From assembly GCA_028870355.1 (NCBI GenBank), contig JAGWPU010000113.1, positions 1 to 38,360 on the forward strand: a stretch of DNA of 38,360 bases. The letters are read 5' to 3'. Below are positions 3,885 through 21,338 of the stretch, in pieces; within the stretch, counting starts at the first letter, position 1; every line of letters starts with the position of its first letter. Under the pieces are notes generated by a model. It had not been told where the DNA came from, made no database searches, and was given only the letters and a program-made list of their open reading frames with translations. The position numbers were made by a program, and so were the translations under genes. Source of the stretch: Gammaproteobacteria bacterium (GTDB lineage Bacteria; Pseudomonadota; Gammaproteobacteria; Steroidobacterales; Steroidobacteraceae).

Positions 3885-3905
3885 GCGCGCCGTTCAGCGG
3901 CGCGC
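3885..3905. terminator. GC-rich hairpin between convergent genes
   Basis: GCGCGCCG (3885-3892) and CGGCGCGC (3898-3905) form a perfect 8-bp stem with a 5-nt loop. It sits immediately after the stop of the fusion gene and across the stop of the thiolase gene. Without a T-tract it is only a candidate bidirectional terminator, because GC-rich DNA yields such stems by chance. Confidence 0.35.
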
Positions 3906-5105
3906 GGCGCCGACGCGGATCACGACGGCCATCGCCGAATCGCCGGCGGCGCATCCCGTGAACAGCCCGAGGCCGCCGCCGCGCTCGACCAGGAACTCGA
4001 TGAGTTCGATCGTCGAGCGCAGGCCGGTCGGCGCGTTCGGGTGGCCGTAGACCAGGGAGCAGCCCCGCGGGTTCATCGTGTCCGGATCCGCGCCGGTGGC
4101 CTGCGCGAACGCGAGATCGTTCACGACGAACGGATTGTGGGTGTTGATCGCGGCGAGATCGCCGATTCCGACGCCCGCGACCGCGAGCGCCCGTTCGGCC
4201 GCGGCGATCGGCGCTTCCGGCATGTACGCGAGTTCGGCCCGCGACTGGCCGAAGCCCAGGATCTCGATCGATACCCCCGGGTCCGCCGACAGCTCGCGCG
4301 CGCGCTCGGGACTCGTGACGACGATCGCGGCGCTGCCGTCCGCCGGATGGGTCTGACCGCCGAAGCTCACCGTGCCGCCGTCGATCACCGGCTTCAGGCC
4401 GGCGAGTCCCTCGGGCGTCGAGAATCGAATGCCTTCGTCGCCGTCGAGCGTGGCCTGCAGCTTGCGCAGCCGGGCGTCCGGCACCGGGAACGGGAGCGTG
4501 ATGTAGCCCTTCTGGAAGCGCCGGTCGTCCGCGAGCGCGTCGCGGTACTGCGCTTCGCGGCGCAACACCAGCTCGTTCTGGCGCGCCGCATCGATCCGGT
4601 AGCGATGCGCGACGTTCTCCGCGGTCTGCACCATCGAATGCCCGCCGAGCGGATCGCAGGCCATGTTCTCGAGGATGAAATCCTCCGCCTCGCCGGTGCC
4701 GCCCATCCCGCCGGGATTCGGGTAGTAGATGTGCGGCCCGTTCGAGGTGCGATCGCACGCGATCGCGAGCGCGACCTGCGCCTCGCCCGACGAGACCTCG
4801 CGCGCGACCGTCGACAGGGCGCGCACGCTGGTCGCACAGGCCTGCGACACCGTCGGGCCGGCGACACGGCCCGCGCCGACCAGGCCCATCAGCCACGGGA
4901 GACCATAGAAGCCGTTGCGTTCGGGTCGCGTCATGCCGAGCACGCCGAAATCGAAGAGGCCGGGATCGAGCTTGCGCCGCGCGAGCTCCGCGCGCGCGAC
5001 GTGCGCGGCGAAGCGCAGACTGTGCAGGTGAGCGAACGCGCCTTGCCAACGCGCGAACGGCGTCGACCAGTAGGCTCGGTAAGGGATCGACGCACGCAGC
5101 GGCAT
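3894..5105 (-). CDS. Thiolase-family beta-ketoacyl-CoA thiolase, last gene of the indoleacetate operon
   Basis: A 403-residue thiolase. The nucleophilic cysteine is Cys90 in SQACATSVRA, the GHP motif gives His355 in LVYGHPNAPTG, and the second catalytic cysteine is Cys385 in FTGCAAGDSAM. The start at 5105 is preferred over the ATG two codons upstream because GGAG lies 7 nt before it and would touch the upstream ATG. Thiolases cleave 3-oxoacyl-CoA with CoA. In the proposed pathway this one would release acetyl-CoA and 2-aminobenzoyl-CoA from 3-(2-aminophenyl)-3-oxopropionyl-CoA. It follows the CoA transferase by 55 nt in the same operon. The motifs around the cysteines (QACATS rather than NRVCGSG, GCAAGD rather than CIGGG) place it in the SCP2-thiolase-like side of the family rather than FadA. 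IaaA is the name I recall for the corresponding protein, with moderate certainty. Confidence 0.82.
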   Translation of the reverse strand: MPLRASIPYRAYWSTPFARWQGAFAHLHSLRFAAHVARAELARRKLDPGLFDFGVLGMTRPERNGFYGLPWLMGLVGAGRVAGPTVSQACATSVRALSTVAREVSSGEAQVALAIACDRTSNGPHIYYPNPGGMGGTGEAEDFILENMACDPLGGHSMVQTAENVAHRYRIDAARQNELVLRREAQYRDALADDRRFQKGYITLPFPVPDARLRKLQATLDGDEGIRFSTPEGLAGLKPVIDGGTVSFGGQTHPADGSAAIVVTSPERARELSADPGVSIEILGFGQSRAELAYMPEAPIAAAERALAVAGVGIGDLAAINTHNPFVVNDLAFAQATGADPDTMNPRGCSLVYGHPNAPTGLRSTIELIEFLVERGGGLGLFTGCAAGDSAMAVVIRVGAARR

Positions 5106-5160
5106 GGTCATTCTCCGGTCGGGTGGATGGCAGGAATCACGGCCTTCGCGAGCGCTCCGA

Positions 5161-6354
5161 TCAGAGGATCACCCCGTCCCGCGCCCAGTCGTCGATCTGC
5201 CGCGGGTCGCAGCCGGCCTCCGCGAGGAGCCGACGGGTATCGGCGCCGTACTTCGGCGGGAATGCCAATTGCCGCGGCGCGCCGGGGGCATCGACGGGGA
5301 GCGGCTGCATGCGCATCGCTCGACCGTCCGGGAGCGTCGTCGTCGTCAGCCGGTCGCGCAGCGAGGCGAGTTCGCGAACCGCCGGCAGATCGAGGATCTT
5401 CGTCGCCGGGAGCGTCGCCTCGCGGAAGGTGGCGAGCAGCGCCTCGGCGGTGCGCGTGGCCGTGACCGCGCCGAGTTCGCGGTAGATCGCCTCGCGCTCG
5501 CGATGACGGCCTTCGTTGGTCGCCCGGGCCGCGCTCGCGATTCCCTCGAAGCCCGGGATCGCGGTCAGGCGGCGCCACTGCAGGTCCGAGCCGATCGCGA
5601 GGTACACGAATCCGTCGCGCGCCGGGTAGACGTTGGTCGGGATGAACTTTCGATGGGCATTGCCGGAGCGGGTCAGATCCGCCGGCGCCGCGCCGCAGTC
5701 GAGCAGCGGCAGCACCGTGATCAGCCAGGACGCCGCGGCCTGGAGCATCGACACGTGGATCTCGCGTCCCTCGCCGCTGCTCGCCCTGTCCAGCAGCGCA
5801 AGGAGGACGCTCGAGTAGAGTTCGTCGCCGGCCTTCAGGTCGACGACCGGCACGCCCATCAGCGTCGGCGGTCCGCCCGGATCGCCGGTGAGCGCCATGT
5901 AGCCGCACATCGCCTGGATCACCGGATCGTACCCCGGGGTGTCCGGTGCGTCGGGGCCGAGCGCCGAGATGCCCGCCCAGATCAGGCCCGGCCGTTCCGC
6001 CGACAGCGTCGCATAGTCGATCCCGAGCGCGCGGTAGCGTGCCGGGAGCGTGTTGCAGCAGAACACGTCGACGTTCAGCGATCGGATCAACCGGCGCAGG
6101 ATCGCGCGCCCGCGCTCGTCCTTCAGGTTGAGCGCGATCGCTTCCTTGCCGACGTTCGGTGCGACGAAGTAGCTGCGCCGATCGTCGTCGGCGATCCGCT
6201 CGCCGATGTACCGGTTCGGGTCGCCGGGCAGGCCGTCGCCGCCCGGCGTCGATTCGACGCGAATCACCCGCCACCCGAGTTGGGCGAAGCGCAGCGTCGC
6301 CGACGGCAGCGAGAGAGCCTGTTCGAGACTGAGGATCGTCGGCCGCGGGGTCAC
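5161..6354 (-). CDS. iaaL: Class III CoA transferase (CaiB/BaiF family), IaaL-like
   Basis: A 397-residue family III CoA transferase. The N-terminal fold segment [11 protein letters not shown] corresponds to the family's LGADVIKVE strand. The block [20 protein letters not shown] carries the aspartate that forms the acyl-enzyme anhydride. The start is GTG, overlapping the stop of the Mo-subunit gene by four bases (GTGA), so translation is coupled. These enzymes move CoA between carboxylic acids. IaaL of the indoleacetate pathway transfers CoA to (2-aminophenyl)succinate or phenylsuccinate from a C4 donor, and here the neighbouring mutase needs exactly such a thioester. The N-terminus is shorter than usual (no 'LxGVRVLDL' opening), so the annotated start may clip a few residues or the protein may be slightly divergent. 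Family call firm, substrate inferred from operon content. Confidence 0.82.
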
Positions 6355-8744
6355 GCGGCGCTCTCGGGCCACGTGGGTGCGGTGCTCTTGCCGCGCAGCG
6401 CCCGATACACCTTCTCCGGCGTGAACGGCAGCGCGTAGATCCGCGTACCGGTCGCATTGTAGATCGCGTTCGCGACCGCGGCGGCGATGCAGATCGCCGG
6501 CGCCTCGCCGACGCCCTTCGCGCCCTGCGGGCCCTCGCCATCGAACGTCTCGATGAACGAGACGTCGACGTCCGGGACCTCCGGCGCGGTGATCAGCTTG
6601 TAGTCGCGGAAGTTCGGGTTCTTGATCACGCCGCCCTCGACCAGCAGGTCCTCGGTCAGCGCGTACCCCTGGCCCATCACGATCCCGCCCTCGATCTGCC
6701 CCTCGATGCCGAGCCGGTTCAGCACGCGCCCGACGTCGTGCGCCGCGGTGATCTTCAGGAGTCGCACCACGCCGGTCTCGGTGTCGACCTCGACTTCGGC
6801 GACCTGCGTCGCCCAGGAATACGCGGCCGAGACGTCGCCGCGGTATTGACGGTCGAGGTGCACGCTCGGCGGCTCGTAATAGTAGGTCGTCATCACGAGA
6901 TCGGCCTTCTCCGCGAAATGCAGCGACCGCAGGAACTTGCCGAGGTCCTGCACGCGCTCGCCGGTCGCCTTCACGACGATGGAGCCGCCGTGCAGGTCGA
7001 GCTCGTCCGCGGCGAGTCCGGCCGTCGGCGCGGCCGCCTCGAGGATCTTGCGTTTCGCCTTGCGTGCGGCGCCGATCGCGGAGTTGCCGCCGATGAACGT
7101 CGTGCGCGACGCGTGCACGCCGACGTCCCACGGCGTGATCGCGGTGTCGTTGTTCACGACGGTCACGGCATCGATCGGCAGGCCGAGCTCCTCGCAGGTG
7201 AGCTGCGCGAGCACCGTCTCGGAGCCCTGGCCGATCTCGGAGGCGCCGGTGATCAGCGTGACCTTCGCGAAGTCGTCGAGCTTGATGATCGTGCCGCAGC
7301 CGTCCGACGGGTACATCTTCGCGCCGCCGCCGACGTGCAGCATCGACGCGATCCCGATCCCGCGCTTGATCGGATTGCCGTCGTTCCAGTGCGCGAGGTT
7401 CGCGCGGCGCTTCGCGCGATAGTCGCTGCGCTCTGCGGCGGTGCGCAGGCAGTCCTTGAAGCCGCAGGATCGGAAGTGCATCCCTTGCGGCGTCGTCTCG
7501 CCCGGGTCCTGGGCGTTCTGCAGGCGGAACTCGAGCGGGTCCATCCCGAGCGCGTCCGCGAGCTTGTCCATGTGCGCCTCGACCGCGAACGTCGCCTGCA
7601 GATTCCCGTAGCCGCGGAACGAGCCGGCATACGGATTGTTCGTGTAGACCGCGCGCGTCCGGTAGTGACAGTGCGGGACCCGGTACAGCGAGGAGATCGT
7701 CTGCATCATCACGAACGGCGTCGTCGCGCCCCAGGACGTGTACGCGCCGTTGTCGTGCAGCGTCTCGACCGAGCGGAACGTGAGCCGGCCCGCGCTGTCG
7801 CAGCCGGAACGAAGCTTCAGCAGCACCGGCTGGCGGGTCGGCGACGCGATGAACTCTTCCTCGCGCGAGAACACGAGCTTGACCGGCCGGCGCGTCAGCT
7901 TCGCGAGGAAGATCGCGATCGGCTCGAACGGATAGATGTCGAGCTTCGAGCCGAAGCCCCCGCCGATCGGCGGCTGGATGATCCGGATGCGACCGGGGTC
8001 GATCCCGAGCAGTTCGGCGAACTCTCTCTTGTGCAGGAACGGCACCTGCGTGTTCGAGTAGAGCAGGAGATTGCCGGAGGGGTCGAACTCCGCGATCACC
8101 CCGGAGACGCCCATGCAGCAATGGGTCACGTAATGCAGCCAGAACACGTCCTCGACGACGACCGCGGAATCGCGTTCGCCCTGGGCGACGTCGCCCTGGC
8201 GGTACTCGTGAACCATCGCGACGTTGTCCTTGGACGCCGGGTGCACGACCTCGAGCGCGCCGCCGCGTCCGGGCGCGCGCAGGTCCTCGCCGTGCAGGAG
8301 CGGTGCGCCGGGTGCGAGCGCCTCGGCGCTGGTCGCGACCACCGGCAAGGGCTCGTAGGTCACCCGGATCAGGCGCAGCGCCTCGTCGGCCGCCTCGACC
8401 GTGTCGGCCGCGACCGCGGCGATCTCGTCGCGGCGGCTGCGCACGATGTCGCTCTTCAGCGGCAGGTGATCCTTGGTCACGCCGATCGGTCGTTGCCACG
8501 GCACGTCGGCGGCGGTGATCACCGCGTGCACGCCGGGCACCCGCCTCGCGGCCTCGACGTCGATCGACACGATCCGGGCATGCACCTGCGAGGAGCGAAG
8601 GATCTTCGCGTGCAGCTGTCCGGGAATGTTGATGTCGTGCAGGTAGCGGGTGCGGCCGCTCGCCTTGTCCGGCGCGTCCAGCTTCGGGATGCGCCGCCCG
8701 ATCAGCGAGTCCGTGTTCGTGCGTTCGAGTGTCGTCGTTGCCAC
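6351..8744 (-). CDS. Molybdopterin-binding large subunit of a xanthine-oxidase-family hydroxylase
   Basis: A 797-residue Mo subunit of the XDH/4-hydroxybenzoyl-CoA reductase/CO dehydrogenase superfamily, in the split three-gene form. It contains the cofactor-binding GGGFGSK (261-267), the [17 protein letters not shown] segment (about 373-389), [19 protein letters not shown] in the C-terminal third, and the catalytic glutamate Glu747 in GAKGVGE. Such enzymes hydroxylate N-heterocycles with oxygen from water, passing electrons through two 2Fe-2S clusters and FAD. In the indoleacetate pathway the corresponding enzyme hydroxylates C2 of the pyrrole ring to give 2-oxindole-3-acetate. The GTG start has GGAG 6 nt upstream and lies 11 nt after the iron-sulfur gene; a start far upstream is excluded because that region codes for the iron-sulfur protein in another frame. 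No Mo-cofactor maturation gene (XdhC-like) is visible in the window. Confidence 0.88.
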
Positions 8745-8755
8745 GGTGCGCTCCT

Positions 8756-9238
8756 TCACTCGGCGGACGCGGTCGGATGCGCGACCGCCTCGACCGCGTC
8801 GATGATCTTCCGGTACCCCGTGCAGCGGCACAGGTTCCCCTCGAGGCCACGTTGGATCTCTTCGCGGCTCGCGTGCGGATGCTCCGCGAGCACCTGCTGC
8901 GCCTGCATCATGAATCCCGGCGTGCAGAAGCCGCATTGCACCGCACCGTGCGCCACCAGCGAGTGGTTCAGCCGTTCGCCGAGCGGCGTCGCGGAGAGGC
9001 CCTCGATCGTCTGAACCTCGCGGCCGTTGCAGTCGACCGCGAACATCAGGCACGAGTTCACCGTGCGCCCGTCGACGGTGATCGTGCACGCGCCGCACTC
9101 GCCCTCGCCGCAGCCGTACTTGGTGCCGGTGAGACCGAGCACGTCGCGGAGCATCTCCAGCGCGCTCATGTCCGCCGCGACCGCGGTTCGCTGCACCACG
9201 CCGTTCAGGCGGAATTCGATTTCAAGCATCGCAGACAT
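8756..9238 (-). CDS. 2Fe-2S subunit of the molybdenum hydroxylase
   Basis: A 160-residue small subunit with the two clusters of the family. Cys43, Cys48, Cys51 and Cys63 bind the plant-type cluster (CGEGECGAC plus a later Cys), and Cys102, Cys105, Cys137 and Cys139 bind the second, helical-domain cluster (CGFC, CRC). It relays electrons from the Mo centre to the FAD subunit. The start at 9238 overlaps the end of the FAD-subunit gene by 17 nt; an ATG at 9229 (8-nt overlap) is also possible and would shorten the protein by three residues. The gene order FAD, FeS, Mo is that of many aerobic and anaerobic heterocycle hydroxylases. All eight ligands are intact. Confidence 0.9.
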
Positions 9239-10088
9239 CGTTGAGTACTCTCCGCAGGAGATTGTGCACCAGTTCGCGCCGATACCAGTCGGATGCGCGT
9301 ACGTCGCTGATCGGGCGGATCGTCGCGTCCGCCGCCTCGACCGCGCGATCGATCCGCGCCCGGTCGAGCGGGCCTTCCGACAGCACGCGCTCCGCCTCGC
9401 TCGCTCTGATGGCGGTCGGCGCGACCGCGCCGAACGCAATGCGGGCATCCTCGAGCCGCCCCTCCCGCAGCGTTCCGCCGACCGCGAGCGCGATCGCGGA
9501 GATGTCGAGGGCCGGCCGGGCACCGAATTTCAGGTATCGATCGACCCAGCCCGCCGGCGGGAGCGGCGCCTGCACCGCGACGAGGAGCTCGTCGGTCCGC
9601 CGAGCCGTGCGCCCGGGCCCGACGAGGAATTCCGCGAGCGGCAGCCGCCGCTTCACGATGCCCTCGGGCCCAGCGCTCGCGAGGACCACCGACGCGCCCA
9701 GCACGAGCAACGGGACCAGCGTATCGCCGGCCGGCGAGGCATTGCAAATGTTGCCGCCGAGCGTTGCCGCGTTGCGGATCTGGCTGCTCGCGAAGTGATC
9801 GCAGGCGGTGCGGAGCACCGGTGCGCGGTCGCGGATCAGCGGATCCTCGAGCAGGCTCGTGATCGTCGTCAGCGCACCGATCTGAACGCCGCCCGGGTCG
9901 CGTGCGACGCCGCGCAGTTCGTCGATCCCCTGGACGTTCAGCAAGGTCGGGGCGAACCGTACCCGGCCGGCGCGGCTCTGCGGCATCAGGTCGGTGCCGC
10001 CGGCGAGCACGGTCGCCGGACCCGAGGCCAGCACCCGCAGCGCATCGGCGAGCGATCGGGGTGCCACATAGTCGCGGATCTCTGTCAC
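9222..10088 (-). CDS. FAD-binding subunit of the molybdenum hydroxylase
   Basis: A 288-residue CO-dehydrogenase-type flavoprotein subunit. The FAD motifs AGGTDLM (near residue 30) and IRNAATLGGNICNASPAGDT (near 103-122) are clear. The C-terminal CO dehydrogenase flavoprotein domain follows. 4-Hydroxybenzoyl-CoA reductase carries an inserted loop with four cysteines for a 4Fe-4S cluster in this subunit. No such insertion or cysteine group is present here, which favours an oxidative hydroxylase over a reductive dehydroxylase. The GTG start is 2 nt after the mutase stop, so the mutase and hydroxylase genes are tightly coupled. The electron acceptor cannot be told from sequence. Confidence 0.88.
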   Translation of the reverse strand: MTEIRDYVAPRSLADALRVLASGPATVLAGGTDLMPQSRAGRVRFAPTLLNVQGIDELRGVARDPGGVQIGALTTITSLLEDPLIRDRAPVLRTACDHFASSQIRNAATLGGNICNASPAGDTLVPLLVLGASVVLASAGPEGIVKRRLPLAEFLVGPGRTARRTDELLVAVQAPLPPAGWVDRYLKFGARPALDISAIALAVGGTLREGRLEDARIAFGAVAPTAIRASEAERVLSEGPLDRARIDRAVEAADATIRPISDVRASDWYRRELVHNLLRRVLNDVCDA

Positions 10089-10090
10089 TG

Positions 10091-11698
10091 TCAGAACCTC
10101 ACCGGCTCTTGGTAACGCCCGTATACCTCGACGAGCTCCTGGGTGATCTCGCCGACGCTCGCGTACGCCTTCACCGCGTCCATCATCGCCGGCATCACGT
10201 TCTCGCCGCGGCTCGCGGCGCTCTTCAACGCGCTCAGCGCACGGCTGACCGCGGCGGCGTCGCGTTGCCCGCGGACCGCGTCGAGGCTCGCGATCTGCGC
10301 GCGTGCGTCGTCGTCGCGATACGGGTGCAGCTCGACCTCGGCGTACTGTTCACCCTCCTGGCGGTAGCAGTTCACGCCGACCTTGCGGAACCCGCCGTTC
10401 TCGATCGCACGGGCCATCTTGTACGCCTGTGCGGACACGCCCGCCTGAATCTCCCCGGAGGCGACCTGCTGCACGATTCCGCCGTTCGCGTCGGTCTCGG
10501 CGATGATCGCGCGCATCCGCTCGCGCATCTGGTTCGTCAGGGTCTCGACGTACCAGGAGCCGCCGAGCGGATCGACGGTCTCGGTCAGGCCCATCTCCTC
10601 GATCAGCAGCTGCATGGTGCGCAACGAGATCCGCTGCGCGTATTCCGACGGGATCGTGTACGCCTCGTCGTAGCAGCACAGCGCCATGGTCTGTGCGCCG
10701 GAGAGCGCGCTGATCAGCGCGTAGTACGCGCCGCGGACGATGTTCACCTCCGGCTGTTCGAGGGTGAGGCCGCCGCCGCCGCCGCCCGCGATCATGCGCA
10801 TCCACATCGATCCGGGCTTGGTCGCGTGGTACTCGTCGCGCATGATGCTCGCCCAGAGGCCGCGGCCCGCGCGGAACTTCGCGACCTGCTCGAACAGATT
10901 CCCGAAGATGTTGAAGTTGAACGACAGCCGGCCTGCGAACTCGTCGATCGGCAGCCCGCGGCGCACGACCTCGTCGGCGTACGCGCGGGCGATGCAGAAC
11001 GCATACGCCATCTCCTGCGCGGGATCGGCGCCGGACTCGCGGATGTGATAGCCGCAGACCGACACCGGGCTGTATTTCGGCGCGTGATGCGCGCAGTACT
11101 CGATCGTGTCGCCGACCAGCCGGATCGACGGGCCGACCGGGTAGATCCAGGTGCCCCGGCCGATGAACTCCTTCAGGATGTCGTTCTGCGCGGTGCCGCG
11201 CAGTCGCTTCACGTCGTAGCCGCGCTTTTCGGCCATCGCGAGGTACATCGCGATCAGCTGCGGCGCGGCGCCGTTGATCGTCAGCGAGACCGTGATCTTC
11301 TCCAGGTCGACCCCGTCGAAGGCGACCTCGAAATCATGCAAGGTATCGACCGCCATCCCGACCCGGCCGACCTCGCCTTCGGCGAGCGGATCGTCCGAGT
11401 CGAGTCCGCACTGGGTCGGCAGATCGAACGCGACGTTGAGACCGGTCTGGCCGTTCTGGATCAGGTAATGGAACCGCTGGTTCGTGTCCGCGGCGTTGCC
11501 GAATCCGGTGTACTGGCGCATCGTCCACGGCTGCTTGCGGTACATCAGCGGGTGGATCCCGCGGGTGAACGGGTACTCGCCCGGGCGCCCGACCATCGTG
11601 GTACCGCCGGTACGCTCGACGTCGTCCGGGCCGTACACGGTCTGGATCTCGATTCCGGATTCGTTCACGACCGGTTTCGCTTCTTTGAAGTCACTCAT
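10091..11698 (-). CDS. B12-dependent acyl-CoA mutase large (substrate-binding) subunit, divergent, (2-aminophenyl)succinyl-CoA mutase candidate
   Basis: A 535-residue methylmalonyl-CoA-mutase-type catalytic subunit without the B12 domain, which is a separate gene 4 nt-overlapped upstream. Residues matching the methylmalonyl-CoA mutase substrate pocket are kept: Tyr63 (Tyr89 equivalent, RQYTGFG), Gln171, Arg181 (Arg207 equivalent, KEFIGRG) and His218 (GYH). The arginine indicates a carboxylated acyl-CoA rather than the isobutyryl or 2-hydroxyisobutyryl type, which have Gln there. Two normally near-invariant stretches are altered: the HxQT(A/S)G block reads IAGGGGGG (303-310), and SLHTNxxDEA reads TMALCCYDEA (337-346). 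In the indoleacetate pathway IaaGH rearranges (2-aminophenyl)succinyl-CoA to (2-aminobenzyl)malonyl-CoA, consistent with a carboxylate anchor plus a remodelled pocket for an aromatic group. No MeaB-type chaperone gene is nearby. Confidence 0.85.
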   Translation of the reverse strand: MSDFKEAKPVVNESGIEIQTVYGPDDVERTGGTTMVGRPGEYPFTRGIHPLMYRKQPWTMRQYTGFGNAADTNQRFHYLIQNGQTGLNVAFDLPTQCGLDSDDPLAEGEVGRVGMAVDTLHDFEVAFDGVDLEKITVSLTINGAAPQLIAMYLAMAEKRGYDVKRLRGTAQNDILKEFIGRGTWIYPVGPSIRLVGDTIEYCAHHAPKYSPVSVCGYHIRESGADPAQEMAYAFCIARAYADEVVRRGLPIDEFAGRLSFNFNIFGNLFEQVAKFRAGRGLWASIMRDEYHATKPGSMWMRMIAGGGGGGLTLEQPEVNIVRGAYYALISALSGAQTMALCCYDEAYTIPSEYAQRISLRTMQLLIEEMGLTETVDPLGGSWYVETLTNQMRERMRAIIAETDANGGIVQQVASGEIQAGVSAQAYKMARAIENGGFRKVGVNCYRQEGEQYAEVELHPYRDDDARAQIASLDAVRGQRDAAAVSRALSALKSAASRGENVMPAMMDAVKAYASVGEITQELVEVYGRYQEPVRF

Positions 11699-12093
11699 CG
11701 GACATTGGCCTCGACGAACGCCACGATATCGTCGAGCCGCGAGCTCGACGGGAACACGCCCTTGAACCCGAGCGCGCGCAGATCCTCCTGATCCGCCTTC
11801 GGGATGTTGCCGCCGATGATCCACAGGCGGTTGCCGAGACCGGACTGTTCGAGCATCGGCTTCAACTTCCGGCAGAAGTCGAGGTGCGAGCCGGCCATGC
11901 TGGACAAGGCGACCACGTCGGCGTCGTGCTCGCGCGCGATCTTCGCGATCGACGCGGGCGTCTGCCGCAGTCCGGTGTAGATCACCTCGAAGCCGGCCTC
12001 CATCAGCGCGCGCGCGACGACCTTCGCGCCGTGATCGTGGCCGTCGAGCCCGGGCTTGCCGAGCACGATCCGGATCTTTCGTTCCTGATTCAT
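11695..12093 (-). CDS. B12-binding small subunit of the acyl-CoA mutase
   Basis: A 132-residue cobalamin-binding domain protein. The base-off/His-on motif is seen as LDGHDHGAKVVARAL near residues 16-30, with the histidine that replaces dimethylbenzimidazole. The later SSMAGSH and IIGGNIP segments complete the B12 site. The length matches small subunits of split mutases. ATG at 12093 overlaps the acyl-CoA dehydrogenase stop (ATGA), and its own stop overlaps the large-subunit start the same way, giving stoichiometric coupling. It donates the adenosylcobalamin cofactor to the large subunit at 10091-11698. Confidence 0.92.
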   Translation of the reverse strand: MNQERKIRIVLGKPGLDGHDHGAKVVARALMEAGFEVIYTGLRQTPASIAKIAREHDADVVALSSMAGSHLDFCRKLKPMLEQSGLGNRLWIIGGNIPKADQEDLRALGFKGVFPSSSRLDDIVAFVEANVR

Positions 12094-13222
12094 CGAGTCA
12101 ACTCCCGCGCGATCAGCATCTTCAGGATCTCGCTGGTCCCGCCGCCGATCAAGGTGAAGCGCACATCGCGCAAGTAACGTTGTATCGGGTATTCCATCGC
12201 GTAGCCGTAGGACGCGTAGATCCGCGCCGCCTGGTCGCACACGCTCGCGGCGGTCTCGCTCGCCTGGAGCTTCGCCATCGCCGCCTCGCGATGGTGCGGC
12301 AAGCCGGCGTCGTAGCGGCGCGCCGCGTCGTAGACCAGGAGCTCGGCGGCCGCGAGGCCGGTCGCCATCTCCGCGAGCTTCAACTGGATCGCCTGGAACG
12401 CGGCGATCGGCTTGCCGAATTGCTTGCGCTCGGTCGCGTAGCGGATCGACGCGTCGAGTGCGGCGCGGGCGACGCCGATCGCCATCGCGCCGGTGATCAC
12501 CCGGATCTCGGCGAGCGTCTTGCGCAGGTGCTCTTCGCCGTCGCCCTCCGCGTGCGAGAGTCGGTGGGAGTCGGGGACGAAACATCGATCGAGACTGAGC
12601 TCCGCGGTCGGCAGCGCCCACACGCCCATCTTGTGGATGCTGCGGCCGATGGTGAGACCTTCGGCGCCGCGCTCGACGAGGAAGATCGTGAGCTTCGCGT
12701 CCACGCCGGCGCGCGCGAACACCGTGAAGAAGTCCGCGACCGGCGCCGACGTGACCCAGGTCTTCTGGCCGGTGAGCTGGTAGCCGCCCTCGGTGCGTTC
12801 GGCCCGGGTCGCGATGCCGCCGAGGTCGCTCCCGGCGTTGGGTTCGGTCATGCAGATCGCGCCGATTTTTTGGCCGAGCAACGCCGGCCGGAACAGCCGC
12901 GTCTTGATCTCCTCGCTGCCCAGCAGCTGCAGGAACTTGGTACCCATCAGCGACTGCATCGCAGCGGCGCCCGCGAGCGACAGCGATCCGCGGGCAATTT
13001 CCTCGAGCGCGAGACAGAACTCGGTCAAGCGCATCCCGGCGCCTCCGTCGGCCTCTGGATAGCGCATCGCGAACAGGCCGACGTCCGCGAGCAGCGCGAA
13101 CAGCTCGGCCGGGAACTCGCCCGCCGCGTCGAGTTCCGCCGCCTTCGGCGCGATCGCCTCGTCGCACAGCCGCGCGAAGGTGTCGCGGATCTGGCGCTGT
13201 TCGTCGCTCAGCCCGAATTCCA

Positions 13223-13223
<1 letters not shown>
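12090..13223 (-). CDS. iaaF: Acyl-CoA dehydrogenase, benzylmalonyl-CoA dehydrogenase (IaaF)-like
   Basis: A 377-residue acyl-CoA dehydrogenase with the expected domains: N-terminal helices, the beta domain with MTEPNAGSDLGG (125-136), and the C-terminal helices with RKQFGKPIAAFQAIQ (266-280). The usual catalytic glutamate of the YEGT motif is replaced: residues 360-363 read GGGT. Glu239 (LAEIRVITG) aligns with the alternative catalytic glutamate used by isovaleryl-CoA-type dehydrogenases, so the enzyme should still be active. In the indoleacetate pathway IaaF oxidatively decarboxylates (2-aminobenzyl)malonyl-CoA to 2-aminocinnamoyl-CoA, and this gene sits directly before the mutase subunits. 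Its start overlaps the ligase stop by one base (TGATG). Electrons would go to ETF, which is not encoded here. Specificity is inferred from context. Confidence 0.82.
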
Positions 13224-14770
<1,547 letters not shown>

Positions 14771-14898
14771 CGCTAGGCTTGCGCGCCCGCGGGCGGCGCG
14801 AGCTGCCGGCGAGTGCCGATCCAAGAGGGGGGCGTGCCAGGCATCGGGTCCGATCTCGTCTCCGCGACGGCCGAAAACGACCGTGGAAAATTGCGTAC

Positions 14899-14908
14899 TG
14901 CATACGGT
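14899..14908. promoter_or_regulatory. Candidate GntR operator, copy 2 (TGCATACGGT)
   Basis: The second copy of TGYATACKGT lies midway between the divergent ligase-to-thiolase operon and the hydantoinase genes. Its core is a near-palindrome ATAC-G-GTAC. It overlaps the weak -10 proposed for the minus-strand operon. Its position allows one bound regulator to control both transcription units. Confidence 0.5.
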
Positions 14909-14933
14909 ACACTCACGTCTCGAACGGTGTCAA
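14906..14933 (-). promoter_or_regulatory. Possible promoter of the ligase-to-thiolase operon
   Basis: On the minus strand a perfect -35 TTGACA (14928-14933) is followed after 16 nt by the weak -10 TGTACC (14906-14911). The geometry mirrors the cobST promoter, including overlap with the TGYATACKGT element. It would leave a 5' leader of roughly 130 nt. The poor -10 makes this tentative and suggests activation may be needed. Confidence 0.35.
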
Positions 14934-14945
14934 TCAAGGCGGCCC

Positions 14946-17021
14946 ATGCGCGTAGGAATCGACGTCGGCGGTACGTTCACGGACTTCGTTTTGTTGCACG
15001 AAGGCAGCGGCGAGACCCTCACGTACAAGTGCCTCACGACGCCGGCCGATCCCGCCGAGGCGATCCTCGAGGGGCTCGTCGCGTTCGAGCGCCAGCGTCC
15101 CGGCACGATCGCGGGTCTCGAGGAAGTGATCCACGGCACGACGCTCGTGATCAATGCGATCATCGAGCGCAAGGGGGCGCGGACCGGCTTGCTGACGACC
15201 CGCGGTTTCCGCGACGTGCTCGAACTCGGTCGCGAGGTTCGCTACGCCGCGTACGATCCGCACGCGCCGATGCCGGAGCCGCTCGTGCCCCGCGAACGGC
15301 GGCTCGAAGTCGACGAGCGCATCCGCTCCGACGGCAGCGTGCTCGAGCCGCTCGTGCGCGACAGCGTGATCGCCTCGCTCGCCGGGCTCGCGGCCGAGCG
15401 GGTCGAGTCGATCGCGGTCTGCCTGCTCAACTCGTTCGAGAACCCGGCGCACGAGCGGCAGATCAAGCAACTGATCGCCGAGACGCTGCCCGGCGTGTCG
15501 GTCTCGATCTCCTACGAGGTCCTGCCGCAGATCCGCGAATACGAACGCACCAGCACCACGGTCGCGAACGCCTACGTGAAGCCCCTGACCGAGTCGTATC
15601 TGCGCTCGCTGCGGGAGCGCCTGGCGGACCGGGGATTCCACGGGCGGCTGTTCATCATGTTGTCCTCCGGCGGCGTCACCTCGGCGGACATCGCGGCGGC
15701 GTATCCGGTACGCATCATCGAGTCGGGGCCGTGCGCGGCGGTGATCGCCGGCCAGTATTTCAGCAAGCTGTTCGATCTGCCGGACATGTTCTGCTTCGAC
15801 ATGGGCGGAACCACCGCGAAGTCCTGCCTGATCCAGAACGGCACCGCCGACGTCGTGCCGACGTTCGAGGTCGGCCGCGTCCAGCGCTTCCAGAAGGGCA
15901 GCGGGATCACCCTGCAGGTTCCGGTCGTCGATCTGATGGAAATCGGTGCGGGCGGCGGGTCCATCGCGCGGCGCAGCCGCGTCGGGACCCTGCAGGTCGG
16001 TCCGCAGAGTGCCGGCGCGGAGCCGGGGCCGATCTGCTACGGTCGCGGCGGCACCGGGCCCACCGTGACCGATGCGGACCTGCTGCTCGGTTACCTCGAT
16101 CCCGAGTACTTCCTCGGCGGCACGATGCGGCTCGACCGCGAGGCGGCGCGCCGCGGCATCCAGGAGCAGATCGCCGAGCCGCTCGGGATCCCCCTGCTGC
16201 AGGCCGCGTGGGGGATCCACGACCTGATCAACGAGACGATGGCCGCTGCGGCGAAGACCCATATCGCCGAGCGCGGTGGCAACGCGCGGCGCGTGACGAT
16301 CGCGGGCTTCGGCGGCGCGGGTCCCGTGCACCTGTACGGTCTCGCGCGCAAGCTCGGCGCGCCGCGCCTGCTCGTGCCCCCGAACGCGGGCGTCGGATCG
16401 GCGCTCGGCTTCTTCACCGCGCCGCGCGCGTTCGACGTCGTCCGCAGCCACAAGACGCCGCTGCTCGGCGCCGATTTCGCGGCGCTGGAGACGCTGTTCC
16501 GCGGTCTCGAGGCCTCGGCCGCCGAGGCGCTGCGCTCGAGCGGCGCCGGCGACCAGGTGCAGTTCGAGCGCAGCGCGGACGTGCGCTTCATCGGCCAGGG
16601 ATCCGAGACGACGTTGCCGCTGCCCGCGGTGGACCTCGCGGGCCTCACGGTCGATGCGGTGCGCGAGCGGTTCGACGCGATCTACGCGAAGCTCTACGGG
16701 CGCACGTACCCCGAGTGCGACGTCGAATTCGTGAGCTTCCGCGTCCGCGCGAGCTTGCCGGTGCGGTTGCTGGAACTGCCGAAGCTCGCGCCGGTCGCCG
16801 GCGCGACCGCGGCGCGGGCGCTCAAGGGCGAGCGCCTCGCGTACTGCGCCGAGGCGGCGGCGATGATCCCGTACGCGGTCTACGACCGATACCGTCTCGC
16901 GCCGGGCGTGCGGTTCGCGGGGCCGGCGATCGTCGAGGAGCGCGAATCGACCATGGTCGTCGGCGCGGGCGGGCAGGTCCGCGTCGACGACTACGGGTTC
17001 CTGTGGATCGATCTGTCATAA
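14946..17021 (+). CDS. Hydantoinase A/oxoprolinase-family subunit (ATP-dependent lactam hydrolase alpha)
   Basis: A 691-residue HyuA-type protein. It opens with the actin-like ATP-binding strand VGIDVGGTFTD and continues with HGTTLVINAI (about 60-70), CFDMGGTTAKS (second phosphate motif) and GFGGAGPVH. With its partner it uses ATP to open a cyclic amide or, in relatives, to carboxylate ketones. In the indoleacetate pathway the hydantoinase-like enzyme (IaaC/IaaE) opens the lactam ring of 2-oxindole-3-acetate to (2-aminophenyl)succinate, a step otherwise missing from this gene set. The third small subunit of acetone carboxylase is absent, which supports hydrolase rather than carboxylase. The ATG at 14946 begins the conserved strand directly. 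No strong Shine-Dalgarno is seen. HyuB follows 14 nt downstream. Confidence 0.87.
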   Translation: MRVGIDVGGTFTDFVLLHEGSGETLTYKCLTTPADPAEAILEGLVAFERQRPGTIAGLEEVIHGTTLVINAIIERKGARTGLLTTRGFRDVLELGREVRYAAYDPHAPMPEPLVPRERRLEVDERIRSDGSVLEPLVRDSVIASLAGLAAERVESIAVCLLNSFENPAHERQIKQLIAETLPGVSVSISYEVLPQIREYERTSTTVANAYVKPLTESYLRSLRERLADRGFHGRLFIMLSSGGVTSADIAAAYPVRIIESGPCAAVIAGQYFSKLFDLPDMFCFDMGGTTAKSCLIQNGTADVVPTFEVGRVQRFQKGSGITLQVPVVDLMEIGAGGGSIARRSRVGTLQVGPQSAGAEPGPICYGRGGTGPTVTDADLLLGYLDPEYFLGGTMRLDREAARRGIQEQIAEPLGIPLLQAAWGIHDLINETMAAAAKTHIAERGGNARRVTIAGFGGAGPVHLYGLARKLGAPRLLVPPNAGVGSALGFFTAPRAFDVVRSHKTPLLGADFAALETLFRGLEASAAEALRSSGAGDQVQFERSADVRFIGQGSETTLPLPAVDLAGLTVDAVRERFDAIYAKLYGRTYPECDVEFVSFRVRASLPVRLLELPKLAPVAGATAARALKGERLAYCAEAAAMIPYAVYDRYRLAPGVRFAGPAIVEERESTMVVGAGGQVRVDDYGFLWIDLS

Positions 17022-17035
17022 AGGAGTGCCGCGCC

Positions 17036-18748
17036 GTGTCGCGTTTCGACCCCGTCACGCTCGAGATCCTCTGGCGCCGCCTCGTGTCGATCGTCGACGA
17101 GGCGGACGCGGCCGTCGCGCGAACGGCGTTTTCCAGCGTGCTTCGCGATTCGCACGACTATACCTGCATGTTCACCGACAGCCGTGGCCGCGAGCTCGCG
17201 CAGGGCACCCTCGCGAGCCCCGGTCAGTCGGGCGCGATGGCGCTCGGGATCAAGAAGCTCGTCACCAGCCGTTCGCCGGCGTTCTTCCAGCCCGGCGACG
17301 TCTTCGTCACCAACGACCCCTGGGCGCTCGCCGGCCATCTGAACGACGTCTGCGTGCTCGCGCCGGTGTTCCACCGCGATCGGCTGATCGCGTTCACCGC
17401 CTGCATCCTGCACCACGCGGACGTCGGCGGGCGCGTCGCCTCGAACAACCACGACGTCTTCGAGGAGGGGCTGTTCCTGCCGCTGGTGCGACTGTACCGC
17501 GACGGGGAACCGAATCCCGACGTGCTCGACATCATCCGCGCGAACGTGCGCACCCCGGAACAGGTGCACGGCGACCTGCGCTCGCAGATCGCCGCGAACC
17601 ATGTGTGTGCGCGGCACATCCAGCAGTTGCTCGACGACTACCGGCTGGACGATCTCGATGAGCTCGGGGACGAGATCATCCGCCGCAGCGAACGGAGCCT
17701 GCGCGAGTCGATCGCGCGGGTCCCCGACGGTACCTACCGCGCCAGCGGGACGATCGAGCAGATCGAAGGCCATGCGCCGGTCGAGATCCATTGCGAATTG
17801 CGGATCGCCGGCAGCGACGTCGTCGTGGATCTGTCCGGTACGACGCCCCAGGTCGACTGGGGCGGCAACGTCGTGTTCAATTTCACGTACGCGTACGTGC
17901 ACATGGCGATCAAGAGCATCTTCGATCCTGAATTGCCGAACAACGAGGGCACCGCCGCGCCGGTCACCTTGATCGCCCCGGAGGGCTCGGTCGTCAACTG
18001 CCGCCATCCCGCGCCGGTGGTCGCGCGGATGCAGATCGGCCACTTCATGACCGAGATCATCTACCGGGCGCTCGCGCCGGTGCTGCCCGATCGGGTGATC
18101 GCCGGGAGCGGCGGGACGCCGGCGACGATGCAGGTGTTCTACGGCGCGCGCGCCACCGGCGAGCCGTTCCATACCGCGGTGATCCGCGGCGGCGGCATGG
18201 GGGCGGGCGCGGCGGGCGACGGATCGGGCAGCTTCGTGTTTCCCGCGAACGCGGCGAACACGCCGGTCGAGATCTTCGAGAGCGATACGCCGCTCGTGAT
18301 CCGTTCGCGGGAACTGCTCGCCGATTCCGGCGGCGCGGGCAAGTTTCGCGGCGCACAGGGCCGGCGCGAGGTGATCTGGGTGCCGGACGACGAGCACGGC
18401 CCCCGCGGCAGCGTCGGCATGGCGATCCAGTCGGGGCGGTTCCAGCGCGCGCCGGACGGACTCTACGGCGGCGGCGCCGGCGGCCTCGCGCGCCTGACCG
18501 TGAACGGCCGGCCTGCGGATCCCTACGGATTGACGAGACTGAAGCGCGGCGACGTGGTCGAGTTCGATACCGCGGGCGGTGGCGGGTTCGGCGATCCGAC
18601 GGAACGGGATCCCGCCGCGGTGGCGCGCGACCTCGCGAGCGGCCGCGTGAGCCCTGAGCGGGCGGCGATCGACTACCGGATCACGCCGGATGCGGCGCCG
18701 CGCGCCGCCGTGGAAGGCTCGCGCGCACGAGCAGCGGGGCGAACCTGA
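17036..18748 (+). CDS. Hydantoinase B/oxoprolinase-family subunit (ATP-dependent lactam hydrolase beta)
   Basis: A 570-residue HyuB protein, the partner of the upstream HyuA. Characteristic segments are FDPVTLEILWRRLVSIVDE at the start, DPWALAGHLNDVCVLAPVF (about 95-113), HHADVGG, and the C-terminal GGGGFGDPTERDP. The GTG start at 17036 has AAGGAG 9 nt upstream and follows the HyuA stop by 14 nt. Together with HyuA it is expected to hydrolyse the 2-oxindole lactam. The last 68 bases overlap the convergent nnrS gene; the tail past residue 545 is Ala/Arg-rich and probably not part of the fold, so the reading frame may have grown into its neighbour. Confidence 0.87.
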   Translation: MSRFDPVTLEILWRRLVSIVDEADAAVARTAFSSVLRDSHDYTCMFTDSRGRELAQGTLASPGQSGAMALGIKKLVTSRSPAFFQPGDVFVTNDPWALAGHLNDVCVLAPVFHRDRLIAFTACILHHADVGGRVASNNHDVFEEGLFLPLVRLYRDGEPNPDVLDIIRANVRTPEQVHGDLRSQIAANHVCARHIQQLLDDYRLDDLDELGDEIIRRSERSLRESIARVPDGTYRASGTIEQIEGHAPVEIHCELRIAGSDVVVDLSGTTPQVDWGGNVVFNFTYAYVHMAIKSIFDPELPNNEGTAAPVTLIAPEGSVVNCRHPAPVVARMQIGHFMTEIIYRALAPVLPDRVIAGSGGTPATMQVFYGARATGEPFHTAVIRGGGMGAGAAGDGSGSFVFPANAANTPVEIFESDTPLVIRSRELLADSGGAGKFRGAQGRREVIWVPDDEHGPRGSVGMAIQSGRFQRAPDGLYGGGAGGLARLTVNGRPADPYGLTRLKRGDVVEFDTAGGGGFGDPTERDPAAVARDLASGRVSPERAAIDYRITPDAAPRAAVEGSRARAAGRT

Positions 18749-19889
18749 CCCCGTAGATCAGGAACGCGAGCGCCCACAGGAACGCCGCGGCGCCCACGAG
18801 CCACTCGGGCCCGTGCGACAGCGCGAACGCGACCCGGAGGATCGCGGCGATCGGCAGCAGGGCGTACGCGAAGCGCATCATCCGATCCGCGCGGACCGCG
18901 CGGCCGGTGTGTTTCAGCGCGACGCGGGTCATCAAACCGAGCTTCAGCGTGCTGTACGCGCCGATGGTGAACGCGTGGATCGCGGCGTCCTGCCACGCGA
19001 GACGTGTCCCGGCGCACGCGCGCAGCAGGAACGAGGCGATCAGCCACAGGTACCCGAGGTGCACGCACCGCAGGATCGGGTCGCGGAACGCCCTCCAGCC
19101 GCGCCATCGGGCCCAGCGCCACGCATGGATCAGCGCGGCCGCGCTCGCGGTCAGGGTCATCCACTGCACGGGCGCGTGCAGCAGATCCGCGAGCGCGAAC
19201 GCGAGCATCGCGGCCGCGGTCGCCATTTCGATCGGCGGCGACAGCGGCTTCGACTCGATCCCGCGGGCGCGGAGCCAGCGGCGGGTGAACGCCGGAACGA
19301 ACAGGCCACCGTACAGGGTGAACAGGAACATCAGCGCATCGACCGCGAGCGCGAGCGCGCGCTCGATCTCCCCGGTCGAGCCCGAGCGCACCCCGGCGTA
19401 GAAGAGGAAGTTCGCGGCAGCGAACGCGCACAGCGGCACCGTGGTCCAGGCGAACAGCCGCTTGCGCGCGCCGCGCGTGCTGTACGCCAGCAGCAAGCCG
19501 AGCACCGGCAGCAACGCCCCGTCGCCGACGACGACCAGCGGTGCCGGCAAGTCGTGCTGGAACAGGAAACACCCGCGTCCGATCAGCCAGAGCGCCGCGA
19601 GGAGTTGCAGCGGCGCGCCGCGAATCTCGGCCGCGCCGGTCCAGCTCGGCATGGCGGTCAGCAGGATCCCGCAGACCAGCGCACCGGCGAACCCGAACAG
19701 CATCTCGTGCGCGTGCAGCGCCCACAGGGGCAGGTGCGGATCGGGGGACGGCCACCACCCGAGGCGCGCGCCGTACCACCACCCGAGCAGCGCGGGACCG
19801 TAGAATGCGGCCGCGAGGAAGAACGGCCGGAAGCCCGCGGCCCACACGGCGGCGCCCTGTGCGCGATCCGCGCCGGCGGTGTGGGTCAA
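18681..19889 (-). CDS. nnrS: NnrS-family haem-copper membrane protein
   Basis: A roughly 400-residue, very hydrophobic polytopic membrane protein with about a dozen predicted transmembrane stretches. The NnrS signatures GFRPFFLAAAFYGP near the N-terminus and HAHEMLFGFAGALVCG are present, with further conserved His/Arg-bearing loops such as AIHAFTIGAYSTLKLGLMTR. NnrS proteins are associated with nitric-oxide stress and denitrification and bind haem and copper. The start chosen is TTG at 19889, which overlaps the stop of the upstream epimerase-like gene (TTGA). A GTG about 13 codons later, just before WAAGFRPFF, is an alternative. The gene shares an operon with the VOC protein and converges on hyuB. 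Why it belongs to this island is unclear; a denitrifying host using this pathway without oxygen is one possibility. Confidence 0.8.
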   Translation of the reverse strand: MTHTAGADRAQGAAVWAAGFRPFFLAAAFYGPALLGWWYGARLGWWPSPDPHLPLWALHAHEMLFGFAGALVCGILLTAMPSWTGAAEIRGAPLQLLAALWLIGRGCFLFQHDLPAPLVVVGDGALLPVLGLLLAYSTRGARKRLFAWTTVPLCAFAAANFLFYAGVRSGSTGEIERALALAVDALMFLFTLYGGLFVPAFTRRWLRARGIESKPLSPPIEMATAAAMLAFALADLLHAPVQWMTLTASAAALIHAWRWARWRGWRAFRDPILRCVHLGYLWLIASFLLRACAGTRLAWQDAAIHAFTIGAYSTLKLGLMTRVALKHTGRAVRADRMMRFAYALLPIAAILRVAFALSHGPEWLVGAAAFLWALAFLIYGVRFAPLLVRASLPRRRAAPHPA

Positions 19890-20347
19890 CGCGCGCCCGG
19901 TGCGTCCGGTGTGCCGCGCGTGCCCGGGGTCTCCTCGAGCTCGCGCCACTTGTAGTCGATGACCTCCAGCAACACGCCGTTCATCCGGCGCGGATGAACG
20001 AACGCGAATTCGCAATCCCGGAACTGGCGCACGCCGCCGATGATCGGATAATCGTTCGCCGCGAGCTCCGTGACCGTCTGCCGCGTGTCGTCGACGTTCA
20101 GGCTGATCAGCATCACGCCCTCGCCGCGCCGCTCGATGAACTTGGCCACGTCGCCGTCCGGGGTCAAGGATTCCATGAGCTCGAACCCGACCCCGCCGAT
20201 CCAGTAACGCGCGACGCGGATCTTTTCCGGTTCGTCGACGTAGGCATCGTCCGGCGCGCTCTTGCCGAGCACCGGCTCCCAGACCTTCCGGGCGGCCTCC
20301 AGATCGCGGACCGCGATGCAAATGTGATCGATCTTGTTCGTCTTCAT
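19886..20347 (-). CDS. VOC/glyoxalase-fold protein resembling methylmalonyl-CoA epimerase
   Basis: A 153-residue protein of the vicinal-oxygen-chelate superfamily, closest in pattern to methylmalonyl-CoA epimerase: KIDHICIAVRDLEAARKVW at the start, ESLTPDGDVAKFIERRGEG in the middle and FVHPRRMNGVLLEVID at the end. His8 and Glu128 match metal ligands, and Glu56 takes the place of a Gln. The paired histidines of the LHH strand are missing; residues 79-80 read Met-Leu. The active site is therefore altered. A (2-aminobenzyl)malonyl-CoA or (2-aminophenyl)succinyl-CoA epimerase would fit next to the mutase pathway. ATG at 20347 starts the conserved strand and has GGGGAG upstream. The upstream region carries operator copy 3. 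Family firm; activity speculative. Confidence 0.72.
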   Translation of the reverse strand: MKTNKIDHICIAVRDLEAARKVWEPVLGKSAPDDAYVDEPEKIRVARYWIGGVGFELMESLTPDGDVAKFIERRGEGVMLISLNVDDTRQTVTELAANDYPIIGGVRQFRDCEFAFVHPRRMNGVLLEVIDYKWRELEETPGTRGTPDAPGAR

Positions 20348-20398
20348 CCGCCGCCGCTCCCCGCCCGGTCGCGCGCGATCGCGACCCACCGGATCGAG

Positions 20399-20408
20399 TG
20401 TATACGGT
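20399..20408. promoter_or_regulatory. Candidate GntR operator, copy 3 (TGTATACGGT)
   Basis: The third copy of TGYATACKGT, extended to TGTATACGGTATGC with the perfect odd palindrome ATAC-G-GTAT. It lies about 50 nt upstream of the epimerase-nnrS pair and about 60 nt upstream of the predicted gntR promoter, so it could serve both. It is the most symmetrical of the three copies. Confidence 0.5.
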
Positions 20409-20460
20409 ATGCTCTGAACCGCCTAGCGGGGTGCGCCGGTGCCGGTGGGGCCGGCGACGA

Positions 20461-20618: not shown

Positions 20619-21338
20619 ATGAAGCGATCGTCTCCGATCAAGAAGGAAGCGACCCTGCGCGAGCAGGTGTTTCAGGTGCTCGTCAGTGAGCTCAAGAGCG
20701 CGCGCTTCGCGCCCGGGGAGCGGATCACCGAAGAAGGGCTCGCAAAGCGGCTCGGCGTGTCCCGGACGCCGATCCGCGAGGCGCTCGGGCAGCTCACGAA
20801 GCAAGGCATCCTGCGTGCGCGCGACGGCGGCGGCTACGTGGTGCCTTCGCCGTCGATCGAGGAGATACGCCAGATCATCGCGGTGCGCCGGCTGCTCGAG
20901 CCGGCCGCGGTCCGAATGGCCGCCGGGGAGTACGGGCCGCCCGAGATCGACCGGATCTCGAAGTCGATCGATGCGGAATCGCGCGCGGCGCCGCGAGCCT
21001 CCCCCGGATTGTTCGCGAAGGCGAACGAGGACTTCCGGCACGCGATCTTCGATGCGATCTCCAACCGGGTGCTGAGCTCGGTGATCGCGCAGTTCGCGGG
21101 CCACCTGCATTTCATCCGGGGCGCGACGCTGAGCGATCTGGAATTGCGGCGCGAGATCGTGAGCCGTCAACAGGCGATCCGCGATGCGCTCGCGCGGCAC
21201 GACGCCGACCGCGCCGAAGCGTTGTGGCGTTCCTATCTCGATCTCACCGAAGCGGCGCTGACGAAGGCGATGATCGACCTCACGCGCCGCGCCACGACCT
21301 CGGCGCGCGACGCGGCCAAGGCGGCGGACGCGGCCTGA
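20619..21338 (+). CDS. GntR-family regulator with FCD domain, probable controller of the indoleacetate genes
   Basis: A 239-residue regulator. Residues 10-75 form the winged helix-turn-helix (RITEEGLAKRLGVSRTPIREAL at about 35-56, wing GGGYVVP). The rest is an all-helical FCD ligand domain with EDFRHAIFDA. Two histidines that usually complete the FCD metal site are replaced: the EHRAI-type motif reads RQQAI and the terminal RRHL-type motif reads RSYL. This suggests a metal-free, FadR-like ligand pocket, for which an acyl-CoA such as indoleacetyl-CoA would be an attractive effector (inference). A GntR regulator also accompanies the known iaa cluster. AAGGA lies a few bases before the ATG. The candidate binding sites are at 1762, 14899 and 20399. 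Confidence 0.86.
   Translation: MKRSSPIKKEATLREQVFQVLVSELKSARFAPGERITEEGLAKRLGVSRTPIREALGQLTKQGILRARDGGGYVVPSPSIEEIRQIIAVRRLLEPAAVRMAAGEYGPPEIDRISKSIDAESRAAPRASPGLFAKANEDFRHAIFDAISNRVLSSVIAQFAGHLHFIRGATLSDLELRREIVSRQQAIRDALARHDADRAEALWRSYLDLTEAALTKAMIDLTRRATTSARDAAKAADAA

Follow-up and report, generated by a model that had tools for sequence, protein, structure and literature searches.

A conserved VOC protein with the methylmalonyl-CoA epimerase fold and a degenerate metal site, and its possible place in anaerobic 2-aminobenzoyl-CoA metabolism

The window, i.e. the whole stretch of 38,360 nucleotides analysed here, carries within an iaa-type locus a gene for a VOC protein that has the predicted fold of methylmalonyl-CoA epimerase (MCE) and a degenerate metal site. 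The family appears to travel with oxygen-independent aryl-CoA catabolism, and the protein is tentatively regarded as an accessory enzyme of the steps around 2-aminobenzoyl-CoA, possibly a tautomerase or deaminase of the reduced ring. In the best reading of its surroundings, the association is strongest where 2-aminobenzoyl-CoA is made or used, i.e. in indoleacetate/tryptophan degradation, in anthranilate activation and alongside dearomatising reductases. When auxin, tryptophan and anthranilate are broken down anaerobically, the route runs via 2-aminobenzoyl-CoA, the further degradation of which is a known activity with, to our knowledge, no assigned gene. A family that shares 67–90% identity over proteobacteria, sulfate reducers, planctomycetes and acidobacteria and is encoded mostly near such genes would give a point of entry to that step, as well as an example of how an epimerase fold is reused once its metal site decays.

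Fold and metal site of the VOC protein

The open reading frame has coding-type codon usage (GC3 0.88). Its product passed the gathering score of Pfam Glyoxalase_4 (PF13669; 51.1 bits, gathering score 27) and shares the paired β-α-β-β-β architecture of this VOC superfamily, but it is short of one usual metal ligand and stands in no known glyoxalase or dioxygenase context. The nearest NCBIfam model was TIGR03081 (MCE), aligned with residues 5–130 at 72.5 bits and thus below the equivalog cut-off of 114.95. Beyond the superfamily level, none of the curated Pfam and NCBIfam models exceeded its cut-off, and no description of such a protein was found in the literature on VOC/glyoxalase proteins in benzoyl-CoA metabolism; the family, highly conserved as it is, is apparently undescribed.

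The AlphaFold2 model was confident over residues 1–138 (mean pLDDT 87.9 overall), and all of the top 20 matches of this model in a Foldseek search against the PDB were MCE entries or the MCE-like 3oa4, with TM scores of 0.71–0.80 by query length. The modelled structure is that of an MCE: residues 2–133 align with MCE chains, and the whole fold and the domain length are common to the VOC protein and MCE (TIGR03081; PDB 3oa4, 6bu2, 6wf6, 3rmu and 1jc4). The sequence-only reading, which had likened the protein to MCE over its entire length, is in agreement with the TIGR03081 alignment, the chain alignment and the Foldseek matches, except for the final 15–20 residues that lie outside the fold.

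Residues of the Streptomyces coelicolor MCE were mapped as read from the HMMER alignment. The metal ligands of that enzyme, which we take to be His7, Gln60, His84 and Glu134, correspond to His8, Glu56, Leu80 and Glu128 of the VOC protein, so that His7 and Glu134 are kept, Gln60 is exchanged for glutamate and His84, the second histidine of the HH pair, is lost. The position of the first histidine is occupied by Met79, and the strand equivalent to EGIHHI reads EGVMLI. Moreover, the acid/base Glu43 is replaced by Val45 and Ser115 by Phe109; Gln60 and Glu43 are named as mutated residues of MCE in titles of PDB entries. In an alignment of 81 homologues (67–100% identity), His8, Val45, Glu56, Met79 and Glu128 proved to be invariant, as did, for example, Arg47, Tyr48, Arg107 and Cys112, while residue 80 is leucine in 76 and isoleucine in 5, leaving the four-ligand set of MCE incomplete in 81/81. 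With Met79 invariant and only leucine or isoleucine at position 80, neither a local mutation nor chance accounts for the change, and the loss of the histidines is an old and fixed trait of the family and not the decay of a single genome. The earlier observation that the LHH ligand strand reads VML therefore holds for the family as a whole; both histidines of the pair are indeed gone, with the correction that only the second is a ligand. The idea that Met79 substitutes for the ligand histidine was dropped because that histidine aligns with Leu80.

It is very improbable that the protein is simply the ordinary methylmalonyl-CoA epimerase of the genome, serving propionate metabolism. A search with the VOC protein found no second MCE-like gene in the 92% complete genome, which would suit such a role, but the score under the TIGR03081 cut-off, the differing metal and acid/base residues and a gene context that is aromatic, not propionate-related, led to its rejection.

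The iaa locus and its putative operator sites

The window holds a full iaa-type cluster, from the thiolase through the hydantoinase pair, the NnrS gene and the VOC gene to the divergent GntR/FCD gene (Table 1). Compared with the iaa pathway of Aromatoleum aromaticum, it has the ligase, the hydantoinase, a GGG-type IaaF and the IaaGH mutase, and also the molybdenum dehydrogenase, IaaL, the thiolase and the fusion dehydrogenase; a VOC-type protein is unnamed in the available part of the published pathway text. The GGG motif has been reported as diagnostic of benzylmalonyl-CoA dehydrogenase (IaaF) (PMC8360864). In support of the sequence-only reading, the VOC gene belongs to a genuine iaa locus here and is found within or close to iaa-type genes in about 20 further loci.

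Table 1. Features of the iaa locus in the window.
Feature	Position	Strand	Remark
3-Hydroxyacyl-CoA dehydrogenase/enoyl-CoA hydratase fusion	1863–3884	+	
Thiolase	3894–5111	−	
IaaL-like class III CoA transferase	5167–6492	−	63% to L010 protein
Molybdenum dehydrogenase, molybdenum-binding subunit	6351–8798	−	
Molybdenum dehydrogenase, 2Fe-2S subunit	8792–9223	−	
Molybdenum dehydrogenase, FAD subunit	9222–10088	−	
IaaG-like mutase large subunit	10091–11740	−	
IaaH-like B12-binding mutase subunit	11695–12090	−	Start approximate
IaaF-like acyl-CoA dehydrogenase	12090–13226	−	GGG motif (RFTLIGGGTSEI)
IaaB-like aryl-CoA ligase	13223–14824	−	
Hydantoinase A-type subunit ORF	14718–17021	+	True start probably about 14946
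Palindrome, divergent ligase/hydantoinase promoter	14895–14910		GTACCGTATGCAGTAC; resembles VOC/GntR-gap site
Hydantoinase B-type subunit	17018–18748	+	Start approximate; homologous ORFs in L001, L002, L004, L005, L006
NnrS-family membrane protein	18681–19889	−	Directly downstream of VOC gene
MCE-fold VOC protein, 153 aa	19886–20347	−	ORF 19889–20347, ATG start, stop at 19886; EGVMLI for EGIHHI; H8, E56, E128 kept; H84-equivalent L80; E43-equivalent V45
Putative operator/promoter element, VOC/GntR gap	20397–20415		GTGTATACGGTATGCTC on +, ATACCGTATACACT on −; conserved in L002, L003
GntR/FCD regulator	20619–21338	+	Divergent from VOC gene

A link of the VOC gene to the pathway through its operator had also been proposed. 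The element ATACCGTATACACT in the VOC/GntR gap (20397–20410) resembles the palindrome of the ligase/hydantoinase promoter, for which 0.05 occurrences are expected by chance; the former is conserved in L002 and L003, and at the position of the latter a perfect palindrome is found in L004 and L005. On the other hand, the likeness of the two window gaps taken alone is at chance level (99/400 shuffles) and may stem in part from promoter sequence, so that the putative sites give modest support to a shared control of the VOC gene and the iaa genes.

An NnrS gene is present in or beside the iaa operons of the window and of L004, L005, L010, L011, L024, L028 and L106, a placement hinting at a link of auxin degradation with nitric-oxide/denitrification physiology. 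The segment 21509–32401 encodes a TonB receptor, an FAD-linked oxidase, a GcvT-like protein, a Cys/Met PLP enzyme and a peroxidase, and is syntenic with L003 (83–94% identity).

Neighbourhoods and distribution of the family

A homologue scan yielded 80 loci (67–90% identity), the hosts of which belong to Pseudomonadota, Desulfobacterota-type MAGs, Planctomycetota, Acidobacteriota and others; plasmid and phage collections gave only distant MCEs or one distant match. Of 63 loci that span 8 kb or more, 55 have, along with the VOC gene, a marker of the indole, anthranilate, aryl-CoA-reductase or ring-cleavage type, and only 21 have iaa markers. No indole or anthranilate marker was seen within the flanks of 21 loci that carry OYE, Bam or Bcr genes, and no relevant neighbours were seen in the D. 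cetonica locus (L012) and seven further loci.

The neighbourhoods fall into four recurrent kinds. The first is the iaa operon, in one layout of which (L010, L016 and L103) the VOC gene has the ligase gene immediately on one side and the IaaF-mutase genes on the other. The second, seen in loci of the sulfate-reducer type, comprises genes for TetR, a naphthoyl-CoA-reductase-like flavoenzyme (nearest solved structure 6qkg), a 175-residue protein, the VOC protein and an HdrA-like protein; some of these loci include genes for indolepyruvate oxidoreductase, a TrpB-like protein or hydantoinase (L007, L064). In the third, the VOC gene is followed by BamC and the remaining class II benzoyl-CoA-reductase set, with BamC directly after it in L021, L025 and L102; Oah immediately precedes the VOC gene in L025, as does an Oah fragment in L102. 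BamB of these clusters is genuinely homologous to benzoyl-CoA reductase (4z3w, E 1e-242), and several of them contain, by sequence similarity, a ligase nearest to the anthranilate-CoA ligase 4wv3 and a monooxygenase of the salicylyl-CoA-hydroxylase family, to which 2-aminobenzoyl-CoA monooxygenase/reductase belongs; RidA-like ORFs occur in the BamBC/anthranilate clusters L102 and L115. The VOC relatives encoded here directly upstream of BamC are 78–80% identical to the window protein, whereas the window's own genome has a class I benzoyl-CoA reductase, encoded with Dch, Oah and Had on another contig (G000:C74, L087), and a search of that genome for BamB found none. The fourth kind consists of Oah/Had or class I reductase genes. 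In the protein tree, iaa-associated members occupy several places, which requires six parsimony changes, at least two of them forced, and this scatter fits repeated recruitment. A molybdenum-hydroxylase-type trio was also found on G000:C74, beside the Dch, Oah, Had and Bcr genes.

Since the genomes include many MAGs and relatives cannot count as independent cases, the co-occurrence figures are descriptive only. For the order to which the window belongs, 6 of 296 genomes have the VOC gene and 5 have a close IaaG, each of these five (5/5) also having the VOC gene. The sixth VOC genome is apparently that of L002, a 3.5-kb contig on which a hydantoinase gene is still visible. In the Azonexus-type family (that of G016), IaaG was detected in 38 of 299 genomes (74–82% identity) and the VOC gene in 2, both without IaaG, so that the overlap is 0/38; three of those IaaG loci (L104–L106) are iaa clusters without the VOC gene. 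Among 50 genomes hosting the VOC gene, Oah was found in 44, IaaG at 60% identity or more in 22, some related mutase in 39 and an IaaF-like dehydrogenase in 18.

These counts bear on the proposal that the protein adds an epimerase step to the iaa pathway. Such an enzyme would make sense, since IaaF is strictly stereospecific for a single benzylmalonyl-CoA enantiomer and the Rhodobacter sphaeroides MCE both epimerises benzylmalonyl-CoA and can restart IaaF, the spontaneous exchange being about 1700-fold slower than IaaF (PMC8360864). Accordingly, an MCE-like epimerase or racemase for (2-aminobenzyl)malonyl-CoA, the metal site of which would be altered or reduced to three ligands and which would supply the enantiomer for IaaF, would agree with the MCE fold, with the retained His8, Glu56 and Glu128, and with the gene order in L010, L016 and L103. 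Co-occurrence with the mutase, suggested beforehand as a check, held in the window's order (5/5) but not in the Azonexus-type family (0/38), and an obligate iaa step was rejected on the latter count. The VOC gene is, furthermore, common without a close IaaG (28/50 hosts) and in anthranilate/BamBC clusters, in which a malonyl-type intermediate would not be expected to arise, so that its distribution is largely independent of the mutase, the very pattern named in advance as speaking against the proposal. As to the residues, the third ligand histidine is leucine or isoleucine and Glu43 is valine; human MCE has valine at the latter position too, and the loss of Glu43 is thus by itself compatible with epimerisation. 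On balance this epimerase function is a rather unlikely though serious alternative, and since the family is spread over indole-, anthranilate- and benzoate-type anaerobic clusters, the protein probably does not represent an added step reserved for the degradation of auxin (indoleacetate).

Candidate roles at the 2-aminobenzoyl-CoA node

The best common denominator of the settings in which the VOC gene occurs is 2-aminobenzoyl-CoA together with ring reduction. Anaerobically, 2-aminobenzoyl-CoA is known to be converted to benzoyl-CoA, and this conversion has been attributed to a 2-aminobenzoyl-CoA reductase (PMC4539516). If the ring of 2-aminobenzoyl-CoA were reduced, its amino group would come to sit on a double bond, giving an enamine, 6-aminocyclohexadiene-carbonyl-CoA, and the likeliest step for the VOC protein would be the conversion of that enamine to the imine or ketone with release of ammonia, by which benzoyl-CoA or 6-oxocyclohexenoyl-CoA would be supplied to the ring hydrolase Oah. 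The ligand-poor pocket would still bind the CoA thioester and aid one proton shift on the ring intermediate; in the window's lineage the gene would have been placed under the iaa regulon, and the epimerisation of (aminobenzyl)malonyl-CoA would not be performed by the protein. The frequency of Oah, found in 44/50 host genomes versus 12/296 genomes of the window's order, argues for an accessory role of this sort. As to settings that combine an anthranilate-CoA ligase with its accompanying BamB paralogue, the VOC gene is present in L018, L021, L025, L033 and L102; it is absent in the genome G351, which has, by sequence similarity, a cluster of anthranilate ligase, monooxygenase and BamB.

The 38 IaaG genomes devoid of the VOC gene, which presumably handle 2-aminobenzoyl-CoA, count against this accessory enzyme, and together with G351 they indicate that the VOC protein is not essential for the 2-aminobenzoyl-CoA node either. 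The 21 OYE/Bam/Bcr loci free of indole or anthranilate markers, as well as L012 and the seven other loci with no relevant neighbours, point in the same direction. A role as a general component of the benzoyl-CoA core was weakened by the window's order, where 7 of the 12 genomes with Oah are without the VOC gene (5/12 have it); as the gene is not present wherever Oah is, it encodes no obligate component of that core. It is rather unlikely that the VOC protein is itself the missing anaerobic 2-aminobenzoyl-CoA enzyme, moving the proton or releasing the ammonia and feeding Oah, with the adjacent BamBC or flavoenzyme acting as the 2-aminobenzoyl-CoA reductase.

A non-catalytic accessory that binds or senses aryl-CoA, e.g. 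a chaperone of the dearomatising reductase or a sequestering factor, is a possible alternative and, as a close second, nearly as likely as the accessory enzyme. The loss of a metal ligand and of the acid/base, the 67–90% identity across phyla and the association with several unrelated reductase types would all fit, as would the 175-residue protein with a TRAPP/V4R/H-NOX-like ligand-binding fold that adjoins the VOC protein in the OYE loci; however, the invariant His/Glu/Glu set together with Cys112, Arg47, Tyr48 and Arg107 suggests chemistry more than binding.

Quite improbable, in turn, is a tautomerase that would convert the enol form of 2-hydroxyindole-3-acetyl-CoA to the 2-oxindole form ahead of ring opening by the hydantoinase. 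Enol and keto forms of 2-oxo-IAA reportedly exist, and genes for molybdenum hydroxylases often adjoin the VOC gene, within iaa loci and outside them (L049, L053, L065, L069); in BamBC/anthranilate loci, L021 and L102 for instance, however, no molybdenum hydroxylase lies next to it, and the 38 iaa genomes without the VOC gene speak against it as well.

The 175-residue protein mentioned above (L007:9143–9670 and 21 other loci) is encoded between the flavoenzyme and the VOC gene and has no Pfam family, some of its homologues matching ATC_hydrolase weakly, below the cut-off; its model, which is confident, resembles the TRAPP, V4R, H-NOX and MopR aromatic-sensor folds. The Azonexus-type genomes G461 (L102, L118, L119) and G351 each contain three BamB paralogues of distinct identity classes. 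In G461, the paralogue next to the VOC gene accompanies the anthranilate genes, and the two others have no VOC gene nearby; that one BamB class goes with anthranilate genes suggests, at the level of sequence, substrate-specific class II aryl-CoA reductases in betaproteobacteria. In L042, two class II Bam-type clusters are arranged in tandem, and the VOC gene is positioned in front of one of them only.
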